This document shows, one piece after another, positions 28,275 through 55,579 of a stretch of DNA of 64,000 nucleotides. This DNA is from Antedon mediterranea. Taxonomy: Eukaryota; Echinodermata; Crinoidea; Comatulida; Antedonidae. The position numbers and the translations under genes were made by a program. Location of the stretch: NCBI RefSeq assembly GCF_964355755.1, contig NC_092679.1, forward strand, positions 310,001-374,000, written 5' to 3'. Under the pieces are notes generated by a model that was given only the letters and a program-made list of their open reading frames with translations, searched no databases and had not been told where the DNA came from. The first letter of the stretch is position 1. Each line of letters starts with the position of its first letter.

Positions 28275-29133
28275 TGCGCGATTTGAACGATTTGCGCAAT
28301 TTGAAATTGCGCAAAAAAATCCTTGCGCAATTTGAAATTGCGCAAAGAATTCTTGCGCAATTTAAAATTGCGCAAAGATTTTTTTGCGCAATTTCAAATT
28401 GCGCAATCAACTTGCGCAATTTCAAATTGCGCAAGAAAATCTTTGCGCAATTTTAAATTGCGCTGCACAATTTGTAAATTGCGCAAGATAGTTCTTGCGC
28501 AATATGACACCTTTGCGCAATTTGAAAACGAACTGTAAATTTTCAAATTGCGCAACAAAATTCTACCAGACAATCGGTATTATAATAATTTATTGGAAAC
28601 TAAATAACTCAAAATAAAACATAATAAATGCGAAGATAACATGTGTATAATAAATACATAACATTTATTATTACAATTAAATAATATTATCACTGTAACT
28701 TGAAATAAATCAAAATAAATGTAAAAATTAAGTTTTTAATATTAGTTTAAGCTAGGCCATGTAACCTAGTCAGTATCAGTAGTCCAGACCCTAGCTAGGC
28801 TAGAGTAGTATAGCCGGCCGCCCGCGCCGCGCCCGCCTGGTGGAACACCACCGCTTCGTTTTCCTTCGTCGGTATGCTAACTTATAACAATATTTGCACT
28901 ACTAAAATAAGGAAATGCGATATTTATCTTTAATTTTGAATCATTCTTAGAAATTACTATAAAAATATGGGTGTGCATGATTTCACAATCTGTCGAAAAA
29001 CCTTGCGCAATTTGCAGATTACTTGCGCAATTTAATACGTTGCTTGCGCAATTTGAAACACATGTTTCAATTCAAATTGCGCAAGGATTTTTTTTGCGCA
29101 ATTTCAAATTGCGCAAATCGTTCAAATCGCGCA
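28275..29133. mobile_element. 859-bp MITE with many TTGCGCAA octamers
   Basis: The left end TGCGCGATTTGAACG and its reverse complement at the right end are flanked by TA on both sides (28,273-28,274 and 29,134-29,135). The terminal inverted repeat runs about 62 bp with one A-run length difference. Between them are 15 TTGCGCAA octamers in the left cluster (28,275-28,560) and six in the right cluster (28,998-29,133), many paired as palindromes around ATTTGAAAT or ATTTCAAAT. The middle is AT-rich with one GC-rich patch (28,810-28,845). Short open frames inside are products of the repeats. There is no transposase, so the element is non-autonomous. Confidence 0.8.
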
Positions 29134-30839: not shown

Positions 30840-33800
30840 TCATGGAATTGGAATTAAAGATGGTGTATTGTACATTCCAATTGGTTGAAAGTTTTCTTGA
30901 ATACCAAATGCACTTGTTCCAACAACCTGGAGGGCTTGCAGTGTTGTTAGTGCTGGAGAGGCTGGTATTGCAAGAACAGCTACACGTAAACCGTAACGCA
31001 ACTCATCTGTTGGGATTGGTTGACCATTATCAGAATCAACGATACAGATCAGGTCTGGAACAGTAGCAACAATCTAAAATAACATAAAATCCATTCAACT
31101 CAATGTAAAAAATGGTAGTAAAAAGAAAATGTAATTATATGTAATATGCCAATTCCAAACTAGAAATAAAAGTTTGTAATGAAACTGAATTGAAAATATC
31201 CTGTATTATTATAATATTTGTCTTTTGTATAGAGCTTAACCAAAATAAATTTTCACTAATGCTACAACCACAAGGCTTGAAACAAGGTGGAAATTACATC
31301 ATTTCATATGTTATGCGAAAGAGATGGGTTTTCAGCAATTGTTTGAAGATGGCAATAGAATTGGCATTCTTGATTCATTGTGGAAGAGTATTCCATAAGG
31401 ATGTTTATCCAATCTATGTCTTTATAGGTCTGTGTTACTATACTCCATTTCAACACTAGTTACTTCTTGAAAAAGAAAGCATGTAAATATCCCTACCATT
31501 TCAGTGCATTGTGCGGTTGTCTTCCTTGCCAACAAGTTTTCATTCTGAAACTCCACATTCAGTGTGCTTTGACTCCATTTTAAAGTGCCCTCAATTGTCA
31601 CGTTTCCTTTGTCAAATCCTTCGTTAGTCTTTCGTGCAACATTAGAAATCTGGATAGAAAATAGGGAAAACATGAACTATTAAATTATGAAAACATTTTA
31701 GTTTTATTATTATTTGTTTGTTTCTGTCTATATAGACTAAAGTAAATAGAATGTGAAAGTGTTTCTTCAGGAAGTTTTTCGAGTTGCGACCCATGACCTA
31801 ACGAGGTCAGGTCAATAAATGTGTTCAATCAAAACAGAGTCGAGGTGGGGAGTGAAGAAACATGTTCCAATGTGCACACAGTTACATACTTTGGTAGTCG
31901 CTCATCGCCAAAACTAAAGCTTCCTAATTACACATTCATTATTATTAACTCTAATGGAAAAAATGCATACCTTGCCTATTATCAATAGAGTTCCATTTTC
32001 CTTTGTTATAATCGCATCGATCGGGGATGATGTAGCTGATAGAACTTTGTGTCCAAGATGGCGAGCTCGGCTTAATGAGTACAGAACACTCTTTTCTAAA
32101 ATTTCGGACTTAGTTAAAGGATTGAAGCTCAAAGCCGCTGAACACCTGTCGACAAAACGCATAAATCAGGTGAAGTGAAATAAATAAGAAAGTATTTTTG
32201 AGACGTTGCTATATATAGTATTATTAAAGTTTAAATAGATATGTATAACAACAACAATTAGATAACAACAACTCTCCGTTGATAGATCTCCATTCCTTCA
32301 TATCTTGAATACATGTCTGTATGTCTTTCCTAAAGCTCTGTCTACACTATCAAGCAAGTTTGACAAATAATGTGTCATGTGCCCAAATATGGTAGTGAAA
32401 CGACATTACCATGTCCATACTATAAATGGGCACATCACGTTTTTTTGTCCCAAGTTTGATAGTGTAGGCAGGGCTTTACTAATAAAATAACTCAAAATGT
32501 TTACCCCATAGATACAACTGTTTTGCGGAAATGATCCTCAAGTTGTTTAGGTGTTTCAGCTTTAAGTACGACAGCTTGCTGACCTTTGTCATCTACAAGA
32601 CAGCATGGGGTCAACGACTTACCATATATAGATGGAACAAACATCTAAAATTCAGAAGAAAACATAGAAATAAGGACGTTAATGGTGGATTCAAGTGAGA
32701 GTGAGATTGTTTTTGAGATGTTTTGCCATACTTAAATACTGATACCACACTTCATCCCTTTTAAATTCAAATCTCTCCTGAAAACTCACCTATTTCAATA
32801 GTTATTCTTTTCAAGAGTGCTTTATAAATATTTCATATTATTATTATTATACCATGGTAATTGAATTTGTGCCCACCTGTAACTCTGGGAAGGCACGTCC
32901 CATACCATCACAATCAACAACAGGTAAGTCTAGAAGTGCACCAACTACTAGAGGTTCCACAGCATTCATTCCACCAATCTCTGCACTCATCACACCTACT
33001 ATTCTATCAGCTGTGTTCTTGCATTTGGTTTCTTCTCTAGAGTCTACAGTGCTGTAATTGTCAATGTATCGAATGCCATCACCTGATTTGACTTCTAAAA
33101 TCAGTTTAAAATAGTTCATTTTAGTACATATTCACAGTACAAAAGAAATGAAGAAAATCTGTAGGTAATGTCAACGAATTGACTAAAAAGTTCATAAATA
33201 TGTTAGCTTGTCGAGAGAATTGGTGAAATGTTCAATTTCTAAATGACGCTATGACCACACCCAGTCACAGGACCAGTAACAGTAATATCATGAACAGGCA
33301 ATCAAATAACAATATCAACAATTAATATCAACACTTAATTCATTTGAATTGTATTTCATCAAATATAGAGCTGAAGATTGGTAACTCATCAAATATTTGG
33401 AAATGATCAATAAAGTATTTGTAGTTTAGCAATAGATTTAATAATGTTGCAGTATTTTGAATTAATGCATAATAATTAATGCTACTCTAACCTTTGATAT
33501 CCCATGATCCTTCAGTAGACCTATTAATTATTTCCTGTTGACATTTGATTGCCTCCAACATTTCTCTTCCACTCATCAACTTTTCAGTCAAAACTCCTGG
33601 TGACCCCATGAAGGCACAAACAGCCACTTTACCACAACCTATCCTAAAGTTATACAAACATAATTAGATTTAAACATCTAAACATCATGTTTTCTGAAAC
33701 TACTGTAAGAATAAGACAATTGCTATTTACCTCTCTGGAGCAATTACTCTGATCTTCTTGCCTTCTTTGAGAAGCTTTTGTGCACGTAGACGTCCAAGGT

Positions 33801-36800
33801 AGGGGCTACCCCCTCCTCCACACCCCAATATTCCAGCGCCAACACTAATGCATTCAATATCGTATTCTGTTAAGAGCCATTCACCGGTTTCTTTGTCAAC
33901 TACTGGTTGTGAAAGATCTTCATTTTTTACACCTAATAAAGGATAAGACATTTGCATTTTGTCATTAGGAAGAACCTTAGCTTTATAAAAGGTTTTGATA
34001 ACATTAATTCATCGTTATGTTTTAAATTTGTGGTAAATAATAGTAATAACCAGGAGAGACTCTGGACTCACTCAATACAGTAAAATAAAACGTTAGGTAC
34101 TGTACATCAGAATCCACATAACTGAAAATAAAGTGTTTAGTCAGATTGACTAAACACTTTATTTACTCAGAGCAGCGTAAAATAATCAAATTGTTTTAAC
34201 TTTTTATGCCACTTGTTATTAAAGTTTTTTCCATATATTCTAGTTTAATTAAACAAAAGATGTACCTGTAACAACCGATTTTTCTTGCTCGTTTTTTAAT
34301 ATTTGCTTGGAAGGTTCAGATCCTGCCGGTTTTCCATCATCCACTGTACAAGATAGAAAAGGAATTGAACTTTGAGAACAATCTACTGATTGCTGGGTCA
34401 ACTTGAGGTCACCGACTGCTTTAACCTTTATACGTGTGCAGCCATGCACATAAGTAAGACTAACTTCTTCGATTTCAGTAATCTAAAATCAAAATTAAAC
34501 ATTTTAGCTACTATAAATGGCTATCCTTATAAAAAAAAAACAACAAAAGAACAGACAAATGGAGGAAGGAAAATTGTGGCAGGAATGTGGGCGTGTTATT
34601 ATTCCCGCCGGTGAATTCATGGCAGGAATGTGGGCGTGTTATTATTCCCGCCGGTGAATTCATGGCAGGAATGTGGGCGTGTTATTATTCCCGCCGGTGA
34701 ATTCATGGCAGGAATGTGGGCGTGTTATTATTCCCGCCGGTGAATTCATGGCAGGAATGTGGGCGTGTTATTATTCCCGCCGGTGAATTCATGGCAGGAA
34801 TGTGGGCGTGTTATTATTCCCGCCGGTGAATTCATGGCAGGAATGTGGGCGTGTTATTATTCCCGCCGGTGAATTCATGGCAGGAATGTGGGCGTGTTAT
34901 TATTCCCGCCGGTGAATTCATGGCAGGAATGTGGGCGTGTTATTATTCCCGCCGGTGAATTCATGGCAGGAATGTGGGCGTGTTATTATTCCCGCCGGTG
35001 AATTCATGGCAGGTATGTGGGCGTGTTATTATTCCCGCCGGTGAATTCATGGCAGGAATGTCGGCGTGTTATTATTCCCGCCGGTGAATTCATGGCAGGA
35101 ATGTGGGCGTGTTATTATTCCCGCCGGTGAATTCATGGCAGGAATGTGGGCGTGTTATTATTCCCGCCGGTGAATTCATGGCAGGAATGTGGGCGTGTTA
35201 TTATTCCCGCCGGTGAATTCATGGCAGGAATGTGGGCGTGTTATTATTCCCGGTGAATTCATTTATCAAAAAAGTTTTTTTCAAGTTGCAGGTGTTTGCT
35301 ACCTTTACTGTAGATAAGTCAGCTCCATTCTTTACAGCTTCATTGATTGCAACCCTCTTTGCTTCTGCAACTGCATCCTCCCTACTAATGTTGGACAAGT
35401 TCACAATGGTGTCGTGTACTCCTCCAATCTGACTCATGGCTGCTCCAACTGCATTTGCAACCTTGATAAACAGTATGAAATAATCTATTACTGAATATAC
35501 TCAATACACTATCTAAGGCTTTGTTTAGTTTATTTATTATAGATAATAACAATTGAAAATGAAATTAAAATGAATAACCTGATAATGTGGCGGTTTAATA
35601 ACCGTTGTAGCCCCTTCTAACGAGTTCTTCTCATCCAATAAAATACTGCCACCACCGACTAAAACATACGGCAAGGCTTCTCTACTTAACTGAAATTAGA
35701 ATTTAAAGGTTTACAGAATAAAAATAATAATAATAATATCCTGGATTTTTTTTTTTACCTCGTATTGGAAACATACTCCCATTAAAATGCAGCTAGTAAT
35801 CAGCGCAAAGTTGTGTCTTGATCTAAACAGGTTCCCATTTATACACCTGGGTGGAGAGAGATAAGTAAGGTATCTTGCCTAAGGATACAAGAACATTAGG
35901 AATTAGAGAAAGCATCAACAAACTTTGTAATTCTTACTTTCATTTGATCCACAACTTCTTCAATCATTTCTTTCATACGATTCATCACAGTTGTAATCTC
36001 CTCCTTTTTCAAATGCTCCACTTTCTTACGATCTCCAAGAACATCACATCCACCGGCTACAGCAATGTCGGTAGTGGTCAGTGTCTGGCCACCAAACACC
36101 ATAGCTTCTTCCACCAATTGATAGCCAACACTCTCTGGACCTACTTTACACACCAGCTGTAATGAAGCATGATTTTATAACTTGTGTTAATAATAAATAA
36201 TAAGTCACTGGACTTGTAATAAGGAGATTTTGATTTGCGACCAATGACCAAACTATGTCATGTCAGTTCATTGTACGCATGTGGAAATATTGGGACATGT
36301 GTCCTCGCTCCTCACCTTACCAGGCACATCGATTGACCTGACCCTGGTGTAAATACATAATTTAGAACTGTATAGTAGAGTAGTAGTCTACTGAAGTTTG
36401 CTGTCCTACTAATCCTAATCCCCACCCCCCCCCCCCCCCTCATAAAATTTATGGTAAAACTAAGTTGAATCCAGCTATACAAATAGTTATAACTAGGATA
36501 GACCACTGCGTTATATTTTAAAAAGAAACTTACATCAACGGAAGAGGTGTTGATCTCAACCTTTGACCCTCCACCAAGACCAATGCTCATCACATCTGGC
36601 ATGCGTAACTTGGTACTGACGCCTCCTATCTTAATATGACTTGACGCCTCTCGTGGGAAACCATTTATGAGACACCCAACATCTGAAGTTGTACCGCCAA
36701 TATCAATTACTACTGCATCTTTAATATCTAAAAAATACAAATATTAGTGGAAGATAAACAATAAACTCAGACAGATTGTTAATTAACAACAAAACTGAAA

Positions 36801-39267
36801 ATCCTATTTTTGACTGAAATTAGAATGAATTAATGTTTTACAATAGTTTGTAACATCTAAATGAATAGAGCAAACCTGCACTATCATTAGGATATATATT
36901 TATGTTTCTATCTGAGCAGTGTGACTAGATTTTTGGTGAGCAAATTGAGAACCTTGTAAGCAACCAGTCAAATACGCCTAATGTATAGTTAAATAGATCT
37001 TTACCCACCTGAGAGAAATGCAGCACCCCTCATGGAATTTGTAGGCCCTGATGAGAATGTATGTACAGGGAATGACTTGGTCTGCTCCGAACTGTAAGAA
37101 AATAAATTAATAATATAAAAGGTAAGGCACATTTAAAACTAACAATAAAAATACAGTATATCCCTAGAATTTACCTTGTCTTGTGTTAGAATATATCCTA
37201 AATTAGAAGGTGGAATTATACTGAAAACAGGGATTATATTTGGTCATAAACTGTAATAAACACATTATTTAGAATGTTACCTTTTTATTGTTCCATCATT
37301 TTGCGTCAAATAATAAGGGCATGTTATTCCAATATCAAGCAAGGCTTTGGATAATGCTTCTACGGTTTTCTGACACAACGGTTGAAGAGACGCATTAAGA
37401 ATGGCAGCATTCTCACGTTCTAGCAAACCTATTTGGCCAACTGTATGTGAGCAAGTGATTTGAGCAATGGGAAATATGTCCTTAACAACACCACTAACCT
37501 GTAACAATAAAAAATAAAAAACATCATAGCAACCTTTTCATGGACATATTCAAAGAGGCACAGTACACATATTAAAACATTACTTTAGTGTAGAAATAGC
37601 ATGTGATACCATCTAATCTTTCATAAAACATTAAACTCTAATTTTAAATTAATATATAGTTTACAAACATAATAGAACAAATTCTATAAATATATTTTAT
37701 ATAATTCGATATTATTGCTATATTAAATTGAATTGACTAAAAATAAATGACAACTTAATACTTTAATACCCATTGTTTTACTAGATCTCTTCTAAGTATA
37801 TTAATAATACAAGTTATTAATCACTCAGCATAGTCTATATTCTGTAACACACATACTACATAGTTCATCCTAGGATTATAGTAGTATTAAAGTAGTACTT
37901 GAACTGAAAATACAAATCATTTGTAAAGCTAAGTTGATAATACTGGAATTTTTAAGCATTGTATTAAAATAATCCAGTGTAGGTTTCTTTATCGTTTTAA
38001 GGGATAACTGCTCTACTTTTTAAATCACTTTTTAAAAAATCAAAAAAAATGTTGATTATGATTGGTAATAATAAATTTAAAAGGAGTTTATCACCAGACA
38101 GTACCGTAGCTAAGAGAAATAAAGTAGTTCGGTGATTGCACGAAAATGGAACAATCTCTGTGCGGGCCTCAAGGTTGTCAAATATCTCTGTGAAAAACTG
38201 TACTGGTGGCTACGACCATGACAGGTATTCATAAACATAGATACATACTAGTTGTTCTTGTTCTGGATTTACTGGGGAAAAAACGCCACTGACAACAATA
38301 TGTACTAGTCCTTTTGCTTGGATATCACTGATGTACGATCTAATCTCATCGTCATCAACATCTGTGATTGGCCGTCCATCAATTTGGAATCCTCCATTTG
38401 CCAAATATGTTGGTCCTTCCACAACCTGTAAATTAATCAAGTGTTAACATTTTGTCTACTTAAAGGCTAATAAAGGAAAAGAACATCAAACTGTAATTTA
38501 ATTTGAAAAATTCAGGGACAATTACGTTTTTGTATTTGTTCTAATTCCATGATGGAAGAAATATTGCGTACCTTTCGAAGATCATCAGGAAAATCGCTAA
38601 AAGGAGGCAAAGCTCCTGATGCAGTACCGCACAACCTAATAACCGCAACCTTTACCAGTCCGCGTCGTTGCACAACAGCGTTCACAAAATGTGTTGTACC
38701 GACATTTACCTGTGCTATTGAGCATGTACCTGAAATAAACAAATAAATATCTCAATTTGTTTATTAGAATCATTAAAGCTCTGTCCACACTATCAAAAAT
38801 GTGTGATGTGTCCAAATATGGTAGTGATATGACATTATCTTGTCCATATATGGGCACATCACATTTCTTCGTCACATCAAGAAATGTTTGATAATGTAAA
38901 CAGAGCTTTAGATAATTAATATAAGAGAGGGGATCAAGTTGAGATTGTATGGTTGTTCATTATCACATTTTTCCTAATACATGTACCCATAGGCCTACAC
39001 ACGAGGTATCAAAAATAACCAGAATTGTACTGGAAACGTTTTAAACTACATTTGAATTATTATTGAAATGAAAATCAAACCATGATTAGCAGAAGCATCT
39101 TGAAGAGCAGAACTAATAGCTTTCTTAACGCCAGTAGTCACATCGTCTGTCGTTGGTTCCTTCACAGACCCAAGAACACGGTCGCCATGCAAAACAACGG
39201 CATCTGTGTTTGTTCCTCCAACGTCTACTCCGACAATACACTTATCAAACATCGAGTTATTACTCAT
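30840..39267 (-). CDS. Fused hydantoinase A / S-Me-THD (DUF917) protein
   Basis: There are seventeen exons (minus, 5' to 3'): 39081-39267, 38572-38729, 38249-38425, 37281-37498, 37009-37091, 36534-36727, 35938-36156, 35579-35689, 35303-35461, 34266-34482, 33731-33932, 33492-33643, 32877-33094, 32505-32644, 31971-32088, 31497-31649, 30840-31073. They sum to 2,940 nt, 979 residues, and all phases agree. Residues 1-505 are hydantoinase/oxoprolinase-like: first ATP-phosphate motif VGVDVGGTNTDAVV (about 12-25), second VVIDIGGTTSDVG (about 280-292), then YVLVGGGS. The family hydrolyses 5-oxoproline or hydantoin rings at ATP cost. Residues about 585-979 are the S-Me-THD domain (former DUF917): VGAGILGCGGGGSPYLGR, SAEIGGMNAVEPLVVG, DCDGMGRAFPE. 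DUF917 members include S-methyl-thiohydantoin desulfurase of ergothioneine breakdown. Substrate is unknown here. Start MSNNSMF precedes the conserved motif by 11 residues. The exon 15 acceptor (AAAAGAG/TGTT) is chosen by phase. Confidence 0.9.
32331..32478. mobile_element. MITE family B copy in intron 14 of the hydantoinase gene
   Basis: The ends are TAAAGCTCTGTCTACACTAT and its near reverse complement ATAGTGTAGGCAGGGCTTTA. The interior carries CCAAATATGGTAGTG and GGGCACATCACG, shared with copies at 38.8, 41.4, 42.0 and 62.2 kb. It has no coding capacity. Confidence 0.8.
34576..35262. repeat. 43-bp minisatellite, 16 copies, in intron 9 of the hydantoinase gene
   Basis: The unit begins ATGGCAGGAATGTGGGCGTG and ends CCCGCCGGTGAATTC. 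Starts at 34,619 and every 43 bp to 35,221 are in register, with one further copy before them. Copies are almost identical: one has GGTATG, one has TCGGCG, and the last lacks three bases (CGC). The array begins about 85 bp from the exon 10 acceptor side and ends about 40 bp from the exon 9 donor, so it fills most of the 820-bp intron (34,483-35,302). Confidence 0.95.
36425..36439. repeat. Poly-C/poly-G tract in intron 6
   Basis: This is an uninterrupted run of 15 C on the plus strand (G on the coding strand), in the intron after exon 6 of the hydantoinase gene. Its length may be unreliable in the assembly. Confidence 0.8.
38774..38910. mobile_element. MITE family B copy in intron 1 of the hydantoinase gene
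   Basis: It begins TAAAGCTCTGTCCACACTAT and ends AATGTAAACAGAGCTTTA. The interior has CCAAATATGGTAGTG and TGGGCACATCACA in the same order as the 32,331 copy. It lies between exon 1 and exon 2. Confidence 0.8.
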
Positions 39268-43135: not shown

Positions 43136-46100
43136 CTAGAGAGCCTCTAAGCCCAAGTTGCAACGACAATATAACATTTTATCTATGACGTGCCACTGAT
43201 CATCGTCCGGATCGTACTCCTCTACTCGGTTTAAGTATGATGACCCAGAATGACCTCCAACAGCATATAACTTATGTCCCATTACAGCTGCAGCAAGTCC
43301 TTAAAACAAAATTTGAAGATTAATTACAATGATGTCATGGCTATTACACAGTGATACACCTACAGACTTAAGTCTGTACTTGAGACAATAAGTGTATACT
43401 TTGGATGTGCAGTATAAACATACTAGAAAAGGTACCGGTACATCCAAATTTATTAAAATTAAAAAGCTGTACCTGTTCTCGCAAGATTCAACGAGGCAAC
43501 CACAGACCACTTATTTCTATTACAGTCATATCGTTCAACACTACTCAAATGTGCTGTTCCGTTGTGACCTCCAACCACGTATATACAGTTATGAAGTACG
43601 GCCACGCCAAAGTCAATACGCTTGTCCGCCATTGGTGCAACCATTTGCCAAGATTCGGTATCCGGATCATACCTTTCCACACTAAAATATAAATTGAAAC
43701 TTTGGACTCAAACTATTGTTCAAAATGAATATTTTTTTAACAAAAATATTTATACTTTTTATTTACTTTGGTATAAAATAATACAAAAAGCAGCAAAAGC
43801 ATTGAATTTATATGAATAAAAATAAATACACAAGACAGTGCTTTAAATCGTAAGAGATTTAGAATTGTTTAAGAACATACCTATTGATGTCTTGTCCACA
43901 TCCTCCAATAACATACAGCATACCATTTGCAACAACAGCTCGGAAGAAACTCCTACTTTTTAACATAGGGGGCGACACACTCCATTGATTCGTTGACGGA
44001 CAATAGCATTCGACACTTCTCATGTATGTTTCACCATCATAGCCACCGAGGGCGTATATCTTTCCTTGTAGTACAGCTGCAGCGTGGTGACTACGACATC
44101 GCAGCATGCTAGCTAATGGTAGCCAACAGTTAGTCTCTGGGTTCCATTGTTCAACACTGCTATCAATTTCTCGGTAGGTCATATTGTTCTGACAAGCCCG
44201 TACTTTGGATTTCGTACCTCCAATAATATAGAGTTTACGATCATGTACAGCAGTGGCATAGTCAAGACGTCGGAAACTTAAGGGTGACACTTCAACCCAT
44301 TCTCTTGTGTTTATATGGTAGACCTCCACACTGTCAAAAATAACATACGAGAATTACACTACTGTACCACCAAGTGTTGCGCTTAAGAACAATGGTTTGG
44401 TGGTTTTTATTAAACCTATAAAGAAATCTAACTATAAGGTTATTAATAATTTAAGACCGCAGCGAATTTACAATCATAACAAATTATTTTTGGCTTCTGT
44501 ATCCCTTTAAAGATTGACTAGCTGCTAAAAATATTGGATTAACGCCACAGTGAGCGTATGCTTAATTGCGATGCTGGCTTAACAGAATAAGCTTAATATA
44601 ACACCATCAACTTAATAAAGCCAACTAGATGCTTAATATAACACGCTAAGCTAAAATTGCTGTTCATAATATACCACAAGTGCACTGAACAGTGATTAAT
44701 CTTTTATTACTATAAATTATTGTATAAAAATAAAGGTATTATTAAAGTCCGCAAAAATTGTATTGATGAAAAAAGAATATAAAATAATAAAAGAATTATA
44801 ATAACATTAACAATAGGAGTGAGTGGACGAGCAGTTATGGCAAGGGTCAAGGGTCACTAGCTCTGGTGGTAGAACGAGTCACTATACTCAGTGCATGGTA
44901 GGGGCTCACTAGCTCTGGTGGTAGAACGAGTCACTATACTCAGTGCATGGTAGGGGGTCACTAGCTCTGGTGGTAGAACGAGTCCTCCTGGATTAGGACT
45001 ATACTCAGTGCATGGTAGGGGGTCACTAGCTCTGGTGGTAGAACGAGTCACTATACGCAGTGCATGGTAGGGGGTCACTAGCTCTGGTGGTAGAACGAGT
45101 CACTATACGCAGTGCATGGTAGGGGGTCACTAGCTCTGGTGGTAGAACGAGTCACTATACTCAGTGCATGGTAGGGGGTCACTAGCTCTGGTGGTAGAAC
45201 GAGTCACTATACGCAGTGCATGGTAGGGGCTCACTAGCTCTGGTGGTAGAACGAATCACTATACTCAGTGCATGGTAGGGGGTCACTAGCTCTGGTGGTA
45301 GAACGAGTCACTATACGCAGTGCATGGTAGGGGCTCACTAGCTCTGGTGGTAGAACGAATCACTATACTCAGTGCATGGTAGGGGGTCACTAGCTCTGGT
45401 GGTAGAACGAATCACTATACTCAGTGCATGGTAGGGGGTCACTAGCTCTGGTGGTAGAACGAGTCACTATACTCAGTGCATGGTAGGGGGTCACTAGCTC
45501 TGGTGGTAGAACGAGTCCTCCTGGATTAGGACTATACTCAGTGCATGGTAGGGGGTCACTAGCTCTGGTGGTAGAACGAGTCACTATACGCAGTGCATGG
45601 TAGGGGGTCACTAGCTCTGGTGGTAGAACGAGTCACTATACGCAGTGCATGGTAGGGGGTCACTAGCTCTGGTGGTAGAACGAGTCCTCCTGGATTAGGA
45701 CTATACTCAGTGCATGGTAGGGGGTCACTAGCTCTGGTGGTAGAACGAGTCACTATACTCTCTCAGTGCATGGTAGGGGGTCACTAGCTCTGGTGGTAGA
45801 ACGAGTCACTATACTCAGTGCATGGTAGGGGGTCACTAGCTCTGGTGGTAGAACGAGTCACTATACGCAGTGCATGGTAGGGGCTCACTAGCTCTGGTGG
45901 TAGAACGAGTCACTATACTCAGTGCATGGTAGGGGCTCACTAGCTCTGGTGGTAGAACGAGTCACTATACTCAGTGCATGGTAGGGGGTCACTAGCTCTG
46001 GTGGTAGAACGAGTCACTATACTCAGTGCATGGTAGGGGCTCACTAGCTCTGGTGGTAGAACGAGTCACTATACTCAGTGCATGGTAGGGGGTCATTAGC

Positions 46101-52100: not shown

Positions 52101-53045
52101 GAAAAAGTGAAAGTAAAATGTTTTCCTCTAGGAAGTTGGTCAATGAAAATTTTCAGTTAAAATTTTAACATACCTTTCCAAAGTAGCTGAAAACCCATTT
52201 TTGCCACCAACAGCACAGAGCATTGTAGCTGGTCTACGACAAGTAACTTGCGACTTTTTGTCACCAATTAATTTTGCTCGATCTTCTGACTTGTGATATT
52301 GCAATGCTCGTTTCACTGCCTCCTTCGCAACTACGCTTTCACGAACAAATTCATTGTTTTCATACAAATTTGTTAAGTACTTAAATGTCAACAACGGTAG
52401 GCGAATGTGCGAGATTAACTTTGGTACGTAAGCTCGTCTTCGATTTAAATCGTATTGCAGCCAACGTTCTAACATTTCAAAAGTGGTTTCTTCCGAGTCC
52501 ACATTTAAACTTTCACTACTCAATATTTTTGATAATTCGAGGGAGTCCATCTGATTAAATTCTTCACTATTGCAAAGATCCTTAAAGTTATCATAGATAA
52601 AATTGCATGCATATTCGTAGAGTTCTTTACAGGCGTGGGTGTCTGCAAATGTTGCAATTCCAATGCAGTTTATGATATGAATCTGATGTTTCAAAAACTC
52701 ACAACATTTATTTTTAACAGCTCGTATTTGTAGCAAATTTGCAGCTGGGAGTAAAGTTTGTACATTTGCTTCTGTAACAGATATTTTACCAGAGTACAAG
52801 AATTCCACTAGAGTTTTTAGAATACCATCATCAATTCCTTTTAGTTCTATTTCTTCTTTCTCCCGTTCGCAAAGGTTACCCGTCAACATAGCTTTAAAAT
52901 ACGGGCTACCGCTAGCTAGGACCAATCTATGTGCACGAACTTTTCTCCCCGAAACCTTCAGTGTCACATCGCAAAGATCCCCTGCTTGGCGCAGCTCAGC
53001 CATGCTCTTCAGAATAGACCTAGAAAACTCAGAAACATCATCCAT
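43136..53045 (-). CDS. BTB-BACK-Kelch (KLHL family) protein
   Basis: Four exons: 52174-53045, 43881-44330, 43473-43681 and 43136-43299, total 1,695 nt, 564 residues, all phases consistent. Residues about 15-120 form the BTB domain (DLCDVTLKVSGRKVRAHRLV, SPYFKAMLTG), about 125-230 the BACK domain, and about 275-560 six Kelch repeats, each with a GG doublet (LCAVGG, LYIIGG, IYALGG, LYVIGG, IYVVGG, LYAVGG). KLHL proteins act as substrate adaptors of CUL3 ubiquitin ligases; BTB and BACK bind CUL3 and the Kelch propeller binds the substrate. The exon 1 donor is AAAG/GTATGT and it joins the distant exon 2 in frame, completing the first Kelch repeat. Intron 1 is 7.8 kb and full of repeats. I cannot say which KLHL number this is. 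The first ATG, MDDVSEF, gives a normal short N-terminus. Confidence 0.92.
44845..46275. repeat. 52-bp minisatellite, 26 copies, in Kelch intron 1
   Basis: The unit is CAGTGCATGGTAGGGGGTCA plus CTAGCTCTGGTGGTAGAACG and AGTCACTATACT. Variants alternate: TATACTC or TATACGC, GGGGTCAC or GGGCTCAC, GAGTCAC or GAATCAC, a CTCTC extension in two units, and a 13-bp longer form containing TCCTCCTGGATTAGG in units 3, 13, 16 and 26. A block of ten units (533 bp) is itself repeated: 44,857-45,078 and 45,390-45,611 are nearly identical. The open frame across it on the minus strand is not a gene. Confidence 0.95.
46276..46744. other. Intronic DNA, no feature seen
   Basis: This is AT-rich DNA in intron 1 of the Kelch gene, between the minisatellite and the SINE. 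I see no coding frame, repeat or RNA-like fold that I can support. Confidence 0.4.
46745..47198 (-). mobile_element. 5S-rRNA-headed SINE with a tRNA-like middle
   Basis: Read on the minus strand, 47,198 down to 47,085 closely follows 5S rRNA: ACGGCCATAC, TCTCGTCAGATCACCGAAG, TTAAGCAACGTTGGGCCCGG, GGATGGGAGACC (the C box of the internal promoter) and GGTGCTGTA. Next, 47,079-47,015 resembles a tRNA, with an A-box-like TGGTGTAATGG and a B-box-like GGTTCGAGGTT at normal spacing. A body follows with GTAAAGCCGTTGGTCCCGTG and TATTCAAAAAGAGTAGGGG, then an A- and AATA-rich tail. 5S-derived SINEs are the SINE3 class. The tRNA-like part may be real or chance. It lies in intron 1 of the Kelch gene, in the same orientation, and directly abuts the tail of the LINE fragment. 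Confidence 0.82.
47205..48092 (-). mobile_element. LINE fragment: C-terminal end of a reverse transcriptase
   Basis: An open frame on the minus strand, from about 48,090 to 47,466 with no internal stop, reads ENSTERVHEFKLLGVYINS, then YKALILPVVTYCCCMWAP, LERVQRKATRIIMY and FPRLWEQLPNEIKQ. This is the end of the reverse transcriptase of non-LTR retrotransposons of the CR1/L2/Rex kind, after the catalytic YXDD region, which is absent. The copy is 5'-truncated, with a stop upstream of ENSTER. The 3' untranslated part ends CCGAATAAATATT and then ATT repeats, the same as at 30,028. The open frame suggests a fairly young insertion. It lies in intron 1 of the Kelch gene in the sense direction. Confidence 0.88.
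48093..49439. other. Intronic DNA, no feature seen
   Basis: This is AT-rich intron 1 sequence of the Kelch gene with no supported coding frame. There is a short CACACACACA run near 48,710. Confidence 0.4.
49440..49876. repeat. Two-level minisatellite in Kelch intron 1
   Basis: There are five major units starting GTATGATTGAAAGGAGTAAT and ending CTAATGTTGTA. Inside each, a 10-bp word ACCTGAGCTG is repeated 1, 3, 1, 3 and 4 times in order. The unit end is either GATGAGGATAAACT (units 1 and 4) or GATGATGCAACT (units 2, 3 and 5). Open frames on the minus strand (QVSSGQLL, SSCCINKQLRS) arise from the repeat and are not a gene. Confidence 0.92.
49877..51446. other. Intronic DNA with weak ACTACAGTT repeats
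   Basis: This is AT-rich intron 1 sequence of the Kelch gene. Between about 50,910 and 50,990 the word CTACAGTT recurs five or six times irregularly. No other feature is seen. Confidence 0.4.
51447..51784. mobile_element. MITE with a 53-bp terminal inverted repeat and GTGCGTCA motifs
   Basis: The left end TGCACTTGTCAATTGTATGA continues through GACCCCCGGGAGAGGTGCGT, and the right end is its exact reverse complement for about 53 bp. TAA lies directly outside both ends, consistent with a 3-bp target duplication as in PIF/Harbinger elements. The interior holds nine exact GTGCGTCA or TGACGCAC octamers, plus near matches (GTACGTCA, GTGTGTCA, GTCCGTCA). There is no transposase. It lies 389 bp inside intron 1 of the Kelch gene, counted from the first exon. 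The perfect ends suggest recent movement. Confidence 0.85.
51928..52088. repeat. 32-bp tandem repeat, five copies, next to Kelch exon 1
   Basis: The unit CCTAAAAGTCACTTGGCCCT plus TTAGCATGGTTA starts at 51,928 and repeats every 32 bp. One copy has CTTAGCCC. The array ends about 85 bp from the splice donor of exon 1. Confidence 0.93.
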
Positions 53046-53721
53046 TTTTATATTTAAAACAGCCTACCTTACTTGATAATTTACAGTCTTTAGCATAAGT
53101 CTATAAACGACGTCTACCCAATGAGAGTAAAAACGACAAATTGAAGTATTCTTCTTCTTGTTGTTCTTGTCAACATTTTGACGATCACATATCGAGTGTT
53201 TTTTAACTCTGTTTGTTGTTGCTGTAATTTGCTCTATAGCGGGCGCTATGCATAATTGTGTGACAGCTGGAGTCGAGTACCTTTTTTCAAAATTAATTAA
53301 GATCTTCGAAAAAAAAATCATCTTATGATAATTATATAATGTAAATTAATTCCAAGAATAAAAAAGCACACACACATACCCAAAGTACACACACAACAGA
53401 ATAGTTATTATATTCTGCAATTGGGTTTCTATTTACATAACGAATAATAAAAGAACTCATAAATATATGATCACTTTTTCCAAATATTTAAAGAGAAAAA
53501 CTATACATTATTGTACAGTATAATTATTGGGTTCGCAACTATCAACACAGTATATTAAACAAATGTTGAGAAAAACTATTAACTTAACTGATGGAACTTG
53601 CGATAGATACTTTACATCCCCTTTACATCATGTAATTGTGCATCCCTTTTAAAGATCATCATTTTATAAGTTTCATAAATCAGTGTTTATAGACACTTAT
53701 TTTACAGAAAAAAATGAATTA
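53046..53721. other. Upstream region of the Kelch gene
   Basis: This stretch between the Kelch start codon and the stop codon of the homeobox gene should hold the Kelch promoter and 5' untranslated region and the homeobox 3' end. A GC-richer patch with GCTATAGCGGGCGCTATG lies near 53,230. No TATA box or initiator can be assigned with confidence. Confidence 0.4.
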
Positions 53722-54868
53722 TCAACTCGGTTTTTTTAGTTCTGTCCAATTAAAACCATTTACACAGGTATAAGTCAAAAGTGTGCTATTCTTCAGTTTG
53801 ATGCCGTAAAGATAATTACGCATAGTGGCGGTGTCGCAAATTGGGTTAGTTGGAAAACCTCCCCCTTCTCCTAAAGCCATCATTGTCATTAGACATCGAT
53901 ACAAATCATTCAGCCTGTGGGGTGGTTTCATCCTCATAGTAGTTTCCGTTCTTTTGAAATCAAACGTCATCAATCCAGGTCCCGCGTTCTGCTGATGGTT
54001 CTGTTTTAAATAAAAGTAAGAAGAGAGGAAAATATTTTATTATGACTAGAATTATTGATATAACGATTAAGCGAAATCGGAAGACAAAATGTACACAGCA
54101 TACTTATGATTTTACCTGACTTTTAGACACGTTGATTGGCACTTGAGATTCCTGTCCAATGATGGAAACATCTGCATCTAAAGATCCAAGATCTTTTTGA
54201 GGGGTGAATAAGACATTCCTTGACGATGACGAAGAGACAGTTGTCTTCCTCTTCGTACACCATGATCCGCCGTTGTTTTCTAGGAATTGGGAATGATCTG
54301 CAATCAATTTTACTTGGATGCCTGGTTTTGGTAAGATTTTTTGCAGACTTCGTTTCCTTTTGAGTTGCGATTTATTTTGTGATGTTATGTTCACTGTCTT
54401 GGACTGCAGCTGGTGGTAACTGGATTTTTCTTCATTTGGATTTCTTTTTATGATGGCATCCAATTCGGTTTGTTCCTGTGCCATTTTCTTCATTCGAGAT
54501 CTTTTATTTTGAAACCAGATGTTTACAAATCTCGTGGACATGCCCCATCTCAAAGCTAATTGTGCTTTCTTCTGCTTACTCGGCCACGAATCTCGTAAAT
54601 ACAATGATTCCAGTTGAAGGAGTTGTTCTGGTTCAATTACCGTGCGTTTGCGGCGTTTTCTCTTTGCATTTTCGAGCCATGATGGGCAGGAATTTGGGGA
54701 TGTCCCGTACGCGGATCCATCTAGGCTTACGGGAATTTTACTTGATTGATCGAGTTTGACAGAAGTTGATCCGTTAACTTCAGGACTAGGCCTACTAGTA
54801 TCATCAGCTAAAACATTAACACTTGACATCTTTTGCTTGTTTATTGTTAAATGAATTTTGTAAATCAT
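53722..54868 (-). CDS. Divergent homeodomain transcription factor
   Basis: There are two exons, 54116-54868 and 53722-54000, joined in phase 0 (CAG/GTAAAA, AAACAG/AAC). The product has 343 residues from the first ATG, or 330 from the internal MSSVNVL at 54,829; both ATGs have A at -3. Counted from MSSVN, residues about 58-117 are a 60-residue homeodomain with the fixed positions R5, L16, Y20, V45, I47, W48, F49, N51 and R53 (TRFVNIWFQNKRSRMKK). Q50 suggests TAAT-type DNA targets. Position 8 is I instead of the usual F. The N-terminus is serine- and proline-rich, and the rest is lysine- and serine-rich with no other domain. The C-terminal exon (TFDFKRTETTMRMKPPHR, GEGGGFPTNP) is unfamiliar. 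I cannot place it in a named homeobox class. Confidence 0.88.
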
Positions 54869-55579
54869 TTTTGTCTAATTATCGTGTATTTAGAACGATC
54901 GAATGCGCGCCACGTTGAATGCGCTGCGCGTACCAATTATAGTAGAAGCGCTAATTGTCGAAATTGATTGGTTAGAAATGTGCAACTTAAAAATGTACGT
55001 CACATGCGATTGTATGTATGGCTACTGTTATTATTTTATAATTCAGTTTAATCAATTTATCAATTTAACTAAAAATAGCATACACTTGTCATTTTAAAAT
55101 AGAATAAAGCAAAAAACACAAATTGTTGAATTTTATATTTATTTCTTACGAATTTGATCCAACATTAACACAAATATAAAATAGCCTTTAATAATATATC
55201 TGAAACATTTAACAAGTTTTAACTAGAAGTTAATAATTTTGGAAAAACAATATCAACTTACATTAACAACCATGTTTATTATCTGTACATTAATTTGTTG
55301 AAATTACACAATATCAACTTACATTAACAACCATGTTTATTATCTGTACATTAATTTGTCGAATTACAGAATATTAGAATTCCTTACAATCACATTTTTA
55401 TTACCTGATACAAATCAAATGTAGTAATATTCTAGTGATACATATTGGAATGCATACGATTGAAGAATTGTATTCCTCTCTACACTATAAATTGATTATC
55501 ATGAGTACTACTATTCATTGTCAGCACTCTGGATTATGTATAACAATTCTGCAGCAGCACATATTGTCTTCTTCGCACA
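54869..55579. other. Region between the DTL stop and the homeobox start
   Basis: It should contain the DTL 3' untranslated region and the homeobox promoter. A perfect-looking 61-bp duplication lies at 55,251. A patch with GCGCGCC and GCGCTGCGCG near 54,905-54,930 may be part of the homeobox promoter. The open frames here carry no recognisable domain. Confidence 0.4.
55251..55372. repeat. 61-bp direct tandem duplication
   Basis: TATCAACTTACATTAACAAC starts at 55,251 and again at 55,312, and the following 40 bases agree almost fully. It lies downstream of the DTL stop codon, probably in its 3' untranslated region or just beyond. Confidence 0.9.

Follow-up and report, generated by a model that had tools for sequence, protein, structure and literature searches.

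We report an animal gene in which a HyuA/oxoprolinase-type ATPase and an S-Me-THD-like (DUF917) protein are predicted to be joined in one polypeptide. The gene occupies positions 30840..39267, on the minus strand, of the window (the whole stretch of 64,000 nucleotides analysed here). It is a variant of a known bacterial pair, a two-gene unit turned into a single chain in the animal through a predicted join, and its interest lies chiefly in tying the function of DUF917 to that of HyuA. The pairing of the two genes in bacteria, the conservation of invariant residues and the matching tree placements of both halves together indicate that the bacterial unit became one polypeptide. The fusion would cast DUF917, described in a 2024 paper as not experimentally characterised (PMC11055893), as the second half of a HyuA-type hydrolase, and if active it would provide an animal route to open a cyclic amide, beside the classical dihydropyrimidinase and oxoprolinase.

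The spliced model runs on the minus strand from an ATG at 39267 to a TGA ending at 30840 and comprises 17 exons and 998 residues; all 16 introns are GT-AG, and the frame has no internal stop and a single final one. An earlier note on this DNA had described a single frame of 979 residues: the single frame stands, and the length is corrected to 998. The HyuA half (34266..39267, minus strand) spans exons 1-10 and encodes residues ~1-530 plus a linker, with exons 1-5 at 39081-39267, 38572-38729, 38249-38425, 37281-37498 and 37009-37091, and exons 6-10 at 36534-36727, 35938-36156, 35579-35689, 35303-35461 and 34266-34482. The DUF917/S-Me-THD half (30840..33932, minus strand) spans exons 11-17, which carry the S-Me-THD_N and S-Me-THD_C matches; exons 11-14 lie at 33731-33932, 33492-33643, 32877-33094 and 32505-32644, and exons 15-17 at 31971-32145, 31497-31649 and 30840-31073. 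Alignment with bacterial DUF917 proteins reveals a 33-residue insertion (residues 693-725; 32996..33094, minus strand) at the start of exon 13, which is absent from the aligned bacterial proteins and has coding-like codons. An alternative in-frame acceptor in exon 13 would drop these residues and yield a 965-residue variant, but it sits in a poor context, inferior to that of the canonical acceptor. The introns also hold repeats, namely a 43-base minisatellite in intron 9 (34577-35252; 15.7 copies, 99% identity) and two related palindromic MITE-like elements (32320-32489 and 38774-38910) with arms of 27-34 bases that are 79-85% complementary.

By Pfam score, the predicted protein is a member of both the HyuA/oxoprolinase ATPase and the S-Me-THD-like (DUF917) families, as the earlier note had proposed, with four domains far above their cut-offs. 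Hydant_A_N (PF05378) matches residues 12-182 (2e-32, 112.9 bits against a cut-off of 25.2) and Hydantoinase_A (PF01968) residues 202-373 (2e-30, 106.7 bits against 22.9). S-Me-THD_N (PF06032) has its best stretch at residues 720-791 and a second stretch upstream (6e-48, 163.2 bits against 27), and S-Me-THD_C (PF20906) covers residues 797-986 (8e-53, 179.1 bits against 27). The HyuA half retains 69 of the 72 positions invariant across 40 bacterial HyuA proteins and the DUF917 half 39 of the 42 invariant across 37 bacterial DUF917 proteins, which argues for an active enzyme, as judged from sequence. The glycine/aspartate motifs of the ATP site (GVDVGGTNTDA and DIGGTTSDVG) are present in the HyuA half; the adenosine motif reported for CapA, GxxPGP, was not seen by eye in the alignment of the short HyuA subfamily.

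Whether the two halves belong to one gene hinges on intron 10 (333 bases, phase 1; 33933..34265, minus strand), which forms the join between them and lies within the linker, exon 10 containing the end of the HyuA half and exon 11 the start of the DUF917 half. A reading in which two adjacent genes have been misjoined, with a HyuA gene ending and a DUF917 gene beginning in this intron, is conceivable on sequence alone, because the unspliced frame of exon 10 meets a stop four codons into the intron and an in-frame ATG lies some 10 codons upstream of exon 11. Against it, the donor and acceptor of intron 10 fit both reading frame and phase, a separate HyuA gene would carry an unrelated tail of ~48 residues, and the linker codons are coding-like on both sides: the coding score of the exon 10-side linker is reached by none of the 157 open 44-codon stretches taken from introns, and that of the exon 11-side linker by ~1% of 23-codon open intronic stretches. 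We therefore regard the misjoining of two genes as very unlikely and predict that HyuA and DUF917 very probably constitute one fused gene.

The host of this gene is an animal, as indicated by BTB-BACK, Kelch and homeobox exons in the window on the same strand as the fusion gene; these nearby exons, together with the 16 introns, rule out bacterial contamination. The spliced 17-exon model, the Pfam matches and the host exons thus bear out the earlier description of a fused animal gene at this position. The homeobox exon (54104-54874, minus strand) encodes an unusual homeodomain, with BTB-BACK and Kelch exons nearby at 52140-53063 and 43859-44353. A profile search of the genome (354 Mb in 18 contigs) returned no further match to PF06032.

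Bacterial relatives of the fusion occur as adjacent genes. In a translated search of plasmids, the whole animal protein is colinear with neighbouring bacterial gene pairs at ~42% identity over 88-94% of its length. Used as the query against ~85,000 prokaryote genomes, the HyuA half retrieved 80 loci at 44-53% identity; this half is colinear with short bacterial HyuA proteins at 45-49% identity, and at up to 53%, and the DUF917 half aligns with bacterial DUF917 proteins at 33-40%. Pairing was counted over 96 HyuA genes in 85 loci, made up of the 80 scan loci and 5 plasmid loci. DUF917 adjoins 94 of these 96 genes and is missing from the other 2; it directly follows HyuA in 72 cases, precedes it in 20 and flanks it on both sides in 2. 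HyuB lies near just 4 of the 85 loci. None of the 85 loci contains an open reading frame matching both the HyuA and DUF917 profiles, in agreement with the earlier statement that the two are commonly separate neighbouring genes in bacteria, and no fusion was found in 50 DUF917-bearing genomes out of a sample of ~800 covering three phyla. On inspection, the longest two frames (945 and 709 residues) turned out to be overlong readings with HyuA in a separate frame and were rejected as fusions. Virus relatives were looked for and none were found. The nearest bacterial relative (L013:1071-6567) has consecutive genes for HyuB, HyuA, a ROK-like kinase (an assignment by eye) and DUF917; given the HyuB gene at this locus, DUF917 might act there as a third component.

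A phylogeny of both halves, suggested in the earlier note, was run for its bacterial part, the animal protein being the sole eukaryote among bacterial rows and forming a long branch. In trees built separately for each half, it groups with one and the same trio of bacterial loci (a Chloroflexi MAG from groundwater, a Shinella plasmid and Sinorhizobium A49), with SH-aLRT values of 87 and 84; in the tree of the joined halves, its grouping with this trio reaches 91 and is nested in a 20-row group supported at 97. These placements make a transfer from bacteria plausible. As a tentative scenario, which we hold to be possible rather than probable, the animal lineage may have taken up a bacterial HyuA-DUF917 pair, merged it into one gene and retained it under strong selection; the product would be a metabolic enzyme without known animal counterpart, opening hydantoins or cyclic dipeptides that come from the diet or from microbes. 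Similar fused proteins may also exist in fungi.

With somewhat better than even confidence, we propose that the fusion protein would act as a single-chain ATP-dependent cyclic-amide hydrolase in which DUF917 is the second catalytic part. By analogy with caprolactamase and oxoprolinase, ATP bound by the N-terminal short HyuA ATPase would activate the ring carbonyl, the C-terminal DUF917 half would take the place of HyuB and complete the hydrolysis of the activated ring, and the linker of ~65 residues would keep the two halves at one-to-one stoichiometry. For caprolactamase, it is proposed that the ATP subunit activates the lactam and that the metal-bearing HyuB-type subunit hydrolyses it, and mutants of the ATP site and of the metal site are both defective, so that both subunits are needed (PMC8453981). 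The HyuA half of the animal gene has no HyuB in its own gene, the fusion protein having no Pfam match to PF02538, and the only PF02538 matches in the genome lie on one contig (C8), next to HyuA exons that belong to a distinct oxoprolinase-like gene; this makes DUF917 the natural second part. The predicted structure of a bacterial short HyuA (513 residues, pLDDT 91.6) can be aligned to the ATP-binding subunits found in N-methylhydantoinase, acetone carboxylase, acetophenone carboxylase and caprolactamase. The predicted bacterial DUF917 fold (pLDDT 93.9) matches CV_3147 (2o3i) with a Z of 41; the fold search returned no HyuB-like or other known fold, the next best match having a Z of 4.4, a value with which distant kinship remains compatible. 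Since DUF917 matches CV_3147 only, a hydrolytic, HyuB-like role would follow from position and pairing, not from homology.

The chief competing account of the chain is that it bears two successive enzymes, with DUF917 removing the sulfur or S-methyl group from a thiohydantoin and HyuA opening the resulting hydantoin. The name of the Pfam family, taken from S-methyl-thiohydantoin desulfurase, and the hydantoin racemases and allantoin/cytosine permeases found near bacterial loci speak for this account, but hydrolases of the HyuA type depend on a second subunit for hydrolysis (PMC8453981), the animal genome yielded no spare HyuB, and DUF917 is paired with HyuA at almost all loci, where oligopeptide transporters dominate. 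Constant pairing with HyuA in the absence of HyuB is more readily explained by one enzyme composed of two catalytic parts than by two enzymes acting in succession, and we consider the latter unlikely. The S-Me-THD name denotes one characterised activity within a very large family, and almost nothing on DUF917 fusions or thiohydantoin desulfurase was found in the open-access papers searched. The two-step thiohydantoin or ergothioneine route put forward in the earlier note takes its cue from the family name and gains no support from the bacterial neighbours: among the 25 commonest neighbour families listed for the bacterial loci there are no histidine or ergothioneine enzymes. Membership of the same HyuA superfamily might also suggest a second 5-oxoprolinase (OPLAH), a reading that we judge highly improbable, since the best relatives of the fusion gene are short HyuA genes adjoining DUF917 and the contig C8 gene combines HyuA and HyuB exons; the fusion does not carry HyuA and HyuB in one chain, and its assignment to OPLAH was rejected.

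The proposed single-chain hydrolase would probably act on a ring derived from peptides, for instance a hydantoin, a cyclic dipeptide or an imide, as suggested by neighbouring transporters and racemases. The bacterial genes are flanked mainly by oligopeptide-type ABC transporter genes and occasionally by an Asp/Glu/hydantoin racemase, a cytosine/allantoin-type permease or a PucR regulator, and one operon also contains an isoaspartyl peptidase and a dipeptidase. DUF917 genes are, moreover, enriched in cyclodipeptide-oxidase clusters (PMC11055893). Taken together, the transporters, racemases, peptidases and cyclodipeptide-oxidase clusters point to hydantoins or cyclic dipeptides. The Shinella operon (L008:9485-22633) comprises an Lrp/AsnC regulator, HyuA, DUF917 and an oligopeptide transporter, and adjoins cyanophycin synthetase and a Mur ligase, genes that it does not adjoin in Roseateles.

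Comparison with known systems delimits what is particular to the animal gene. The pairs of short HyuA and DUF917 in Shinella zoogloeoides (NZ_CP086612), Sinorhizobium sp. A49 and the Chloroflexi MAG (JACQED010000457) have the same domains in the same order, with 42-49% identity to the animal protein over both parts and nearly all invariant residues in common; they are separate genes, whereas the animal gene encodes one chain with a linker and a 33-residue insertion and is interrupted by 16 introns. Fusion of genes that are adjacent in bacteria gives good grounds for concluding that the encoded proteins work jointly. 5-oxoprolinase (OPLAH) and N-methylhydantoinase (7hk5) are, like the fusion, single-chain enzymes with a HyuA-type ATP-binding half, but their second half is HyuB instead of DUF917. 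Caprolactamase CapAB (6yra) likewise couples a HyuA-type ATPase to a second hydrolytic part, a part that DUF917 would supply in the fusion; CapAB consists of two chains, and CapB belongs to the HyuB type and holds a metal site, whereas the fold search gave DUF917 no such match. CV_3147, which shares the fold predicted for bacterial DUF917, is a stand-alone, uncharacterised protein. Elsewhere in the window, at 28292-28463, lies a tandem array rich in TTGCGCAATTT palindromes, with a period of 31/61.
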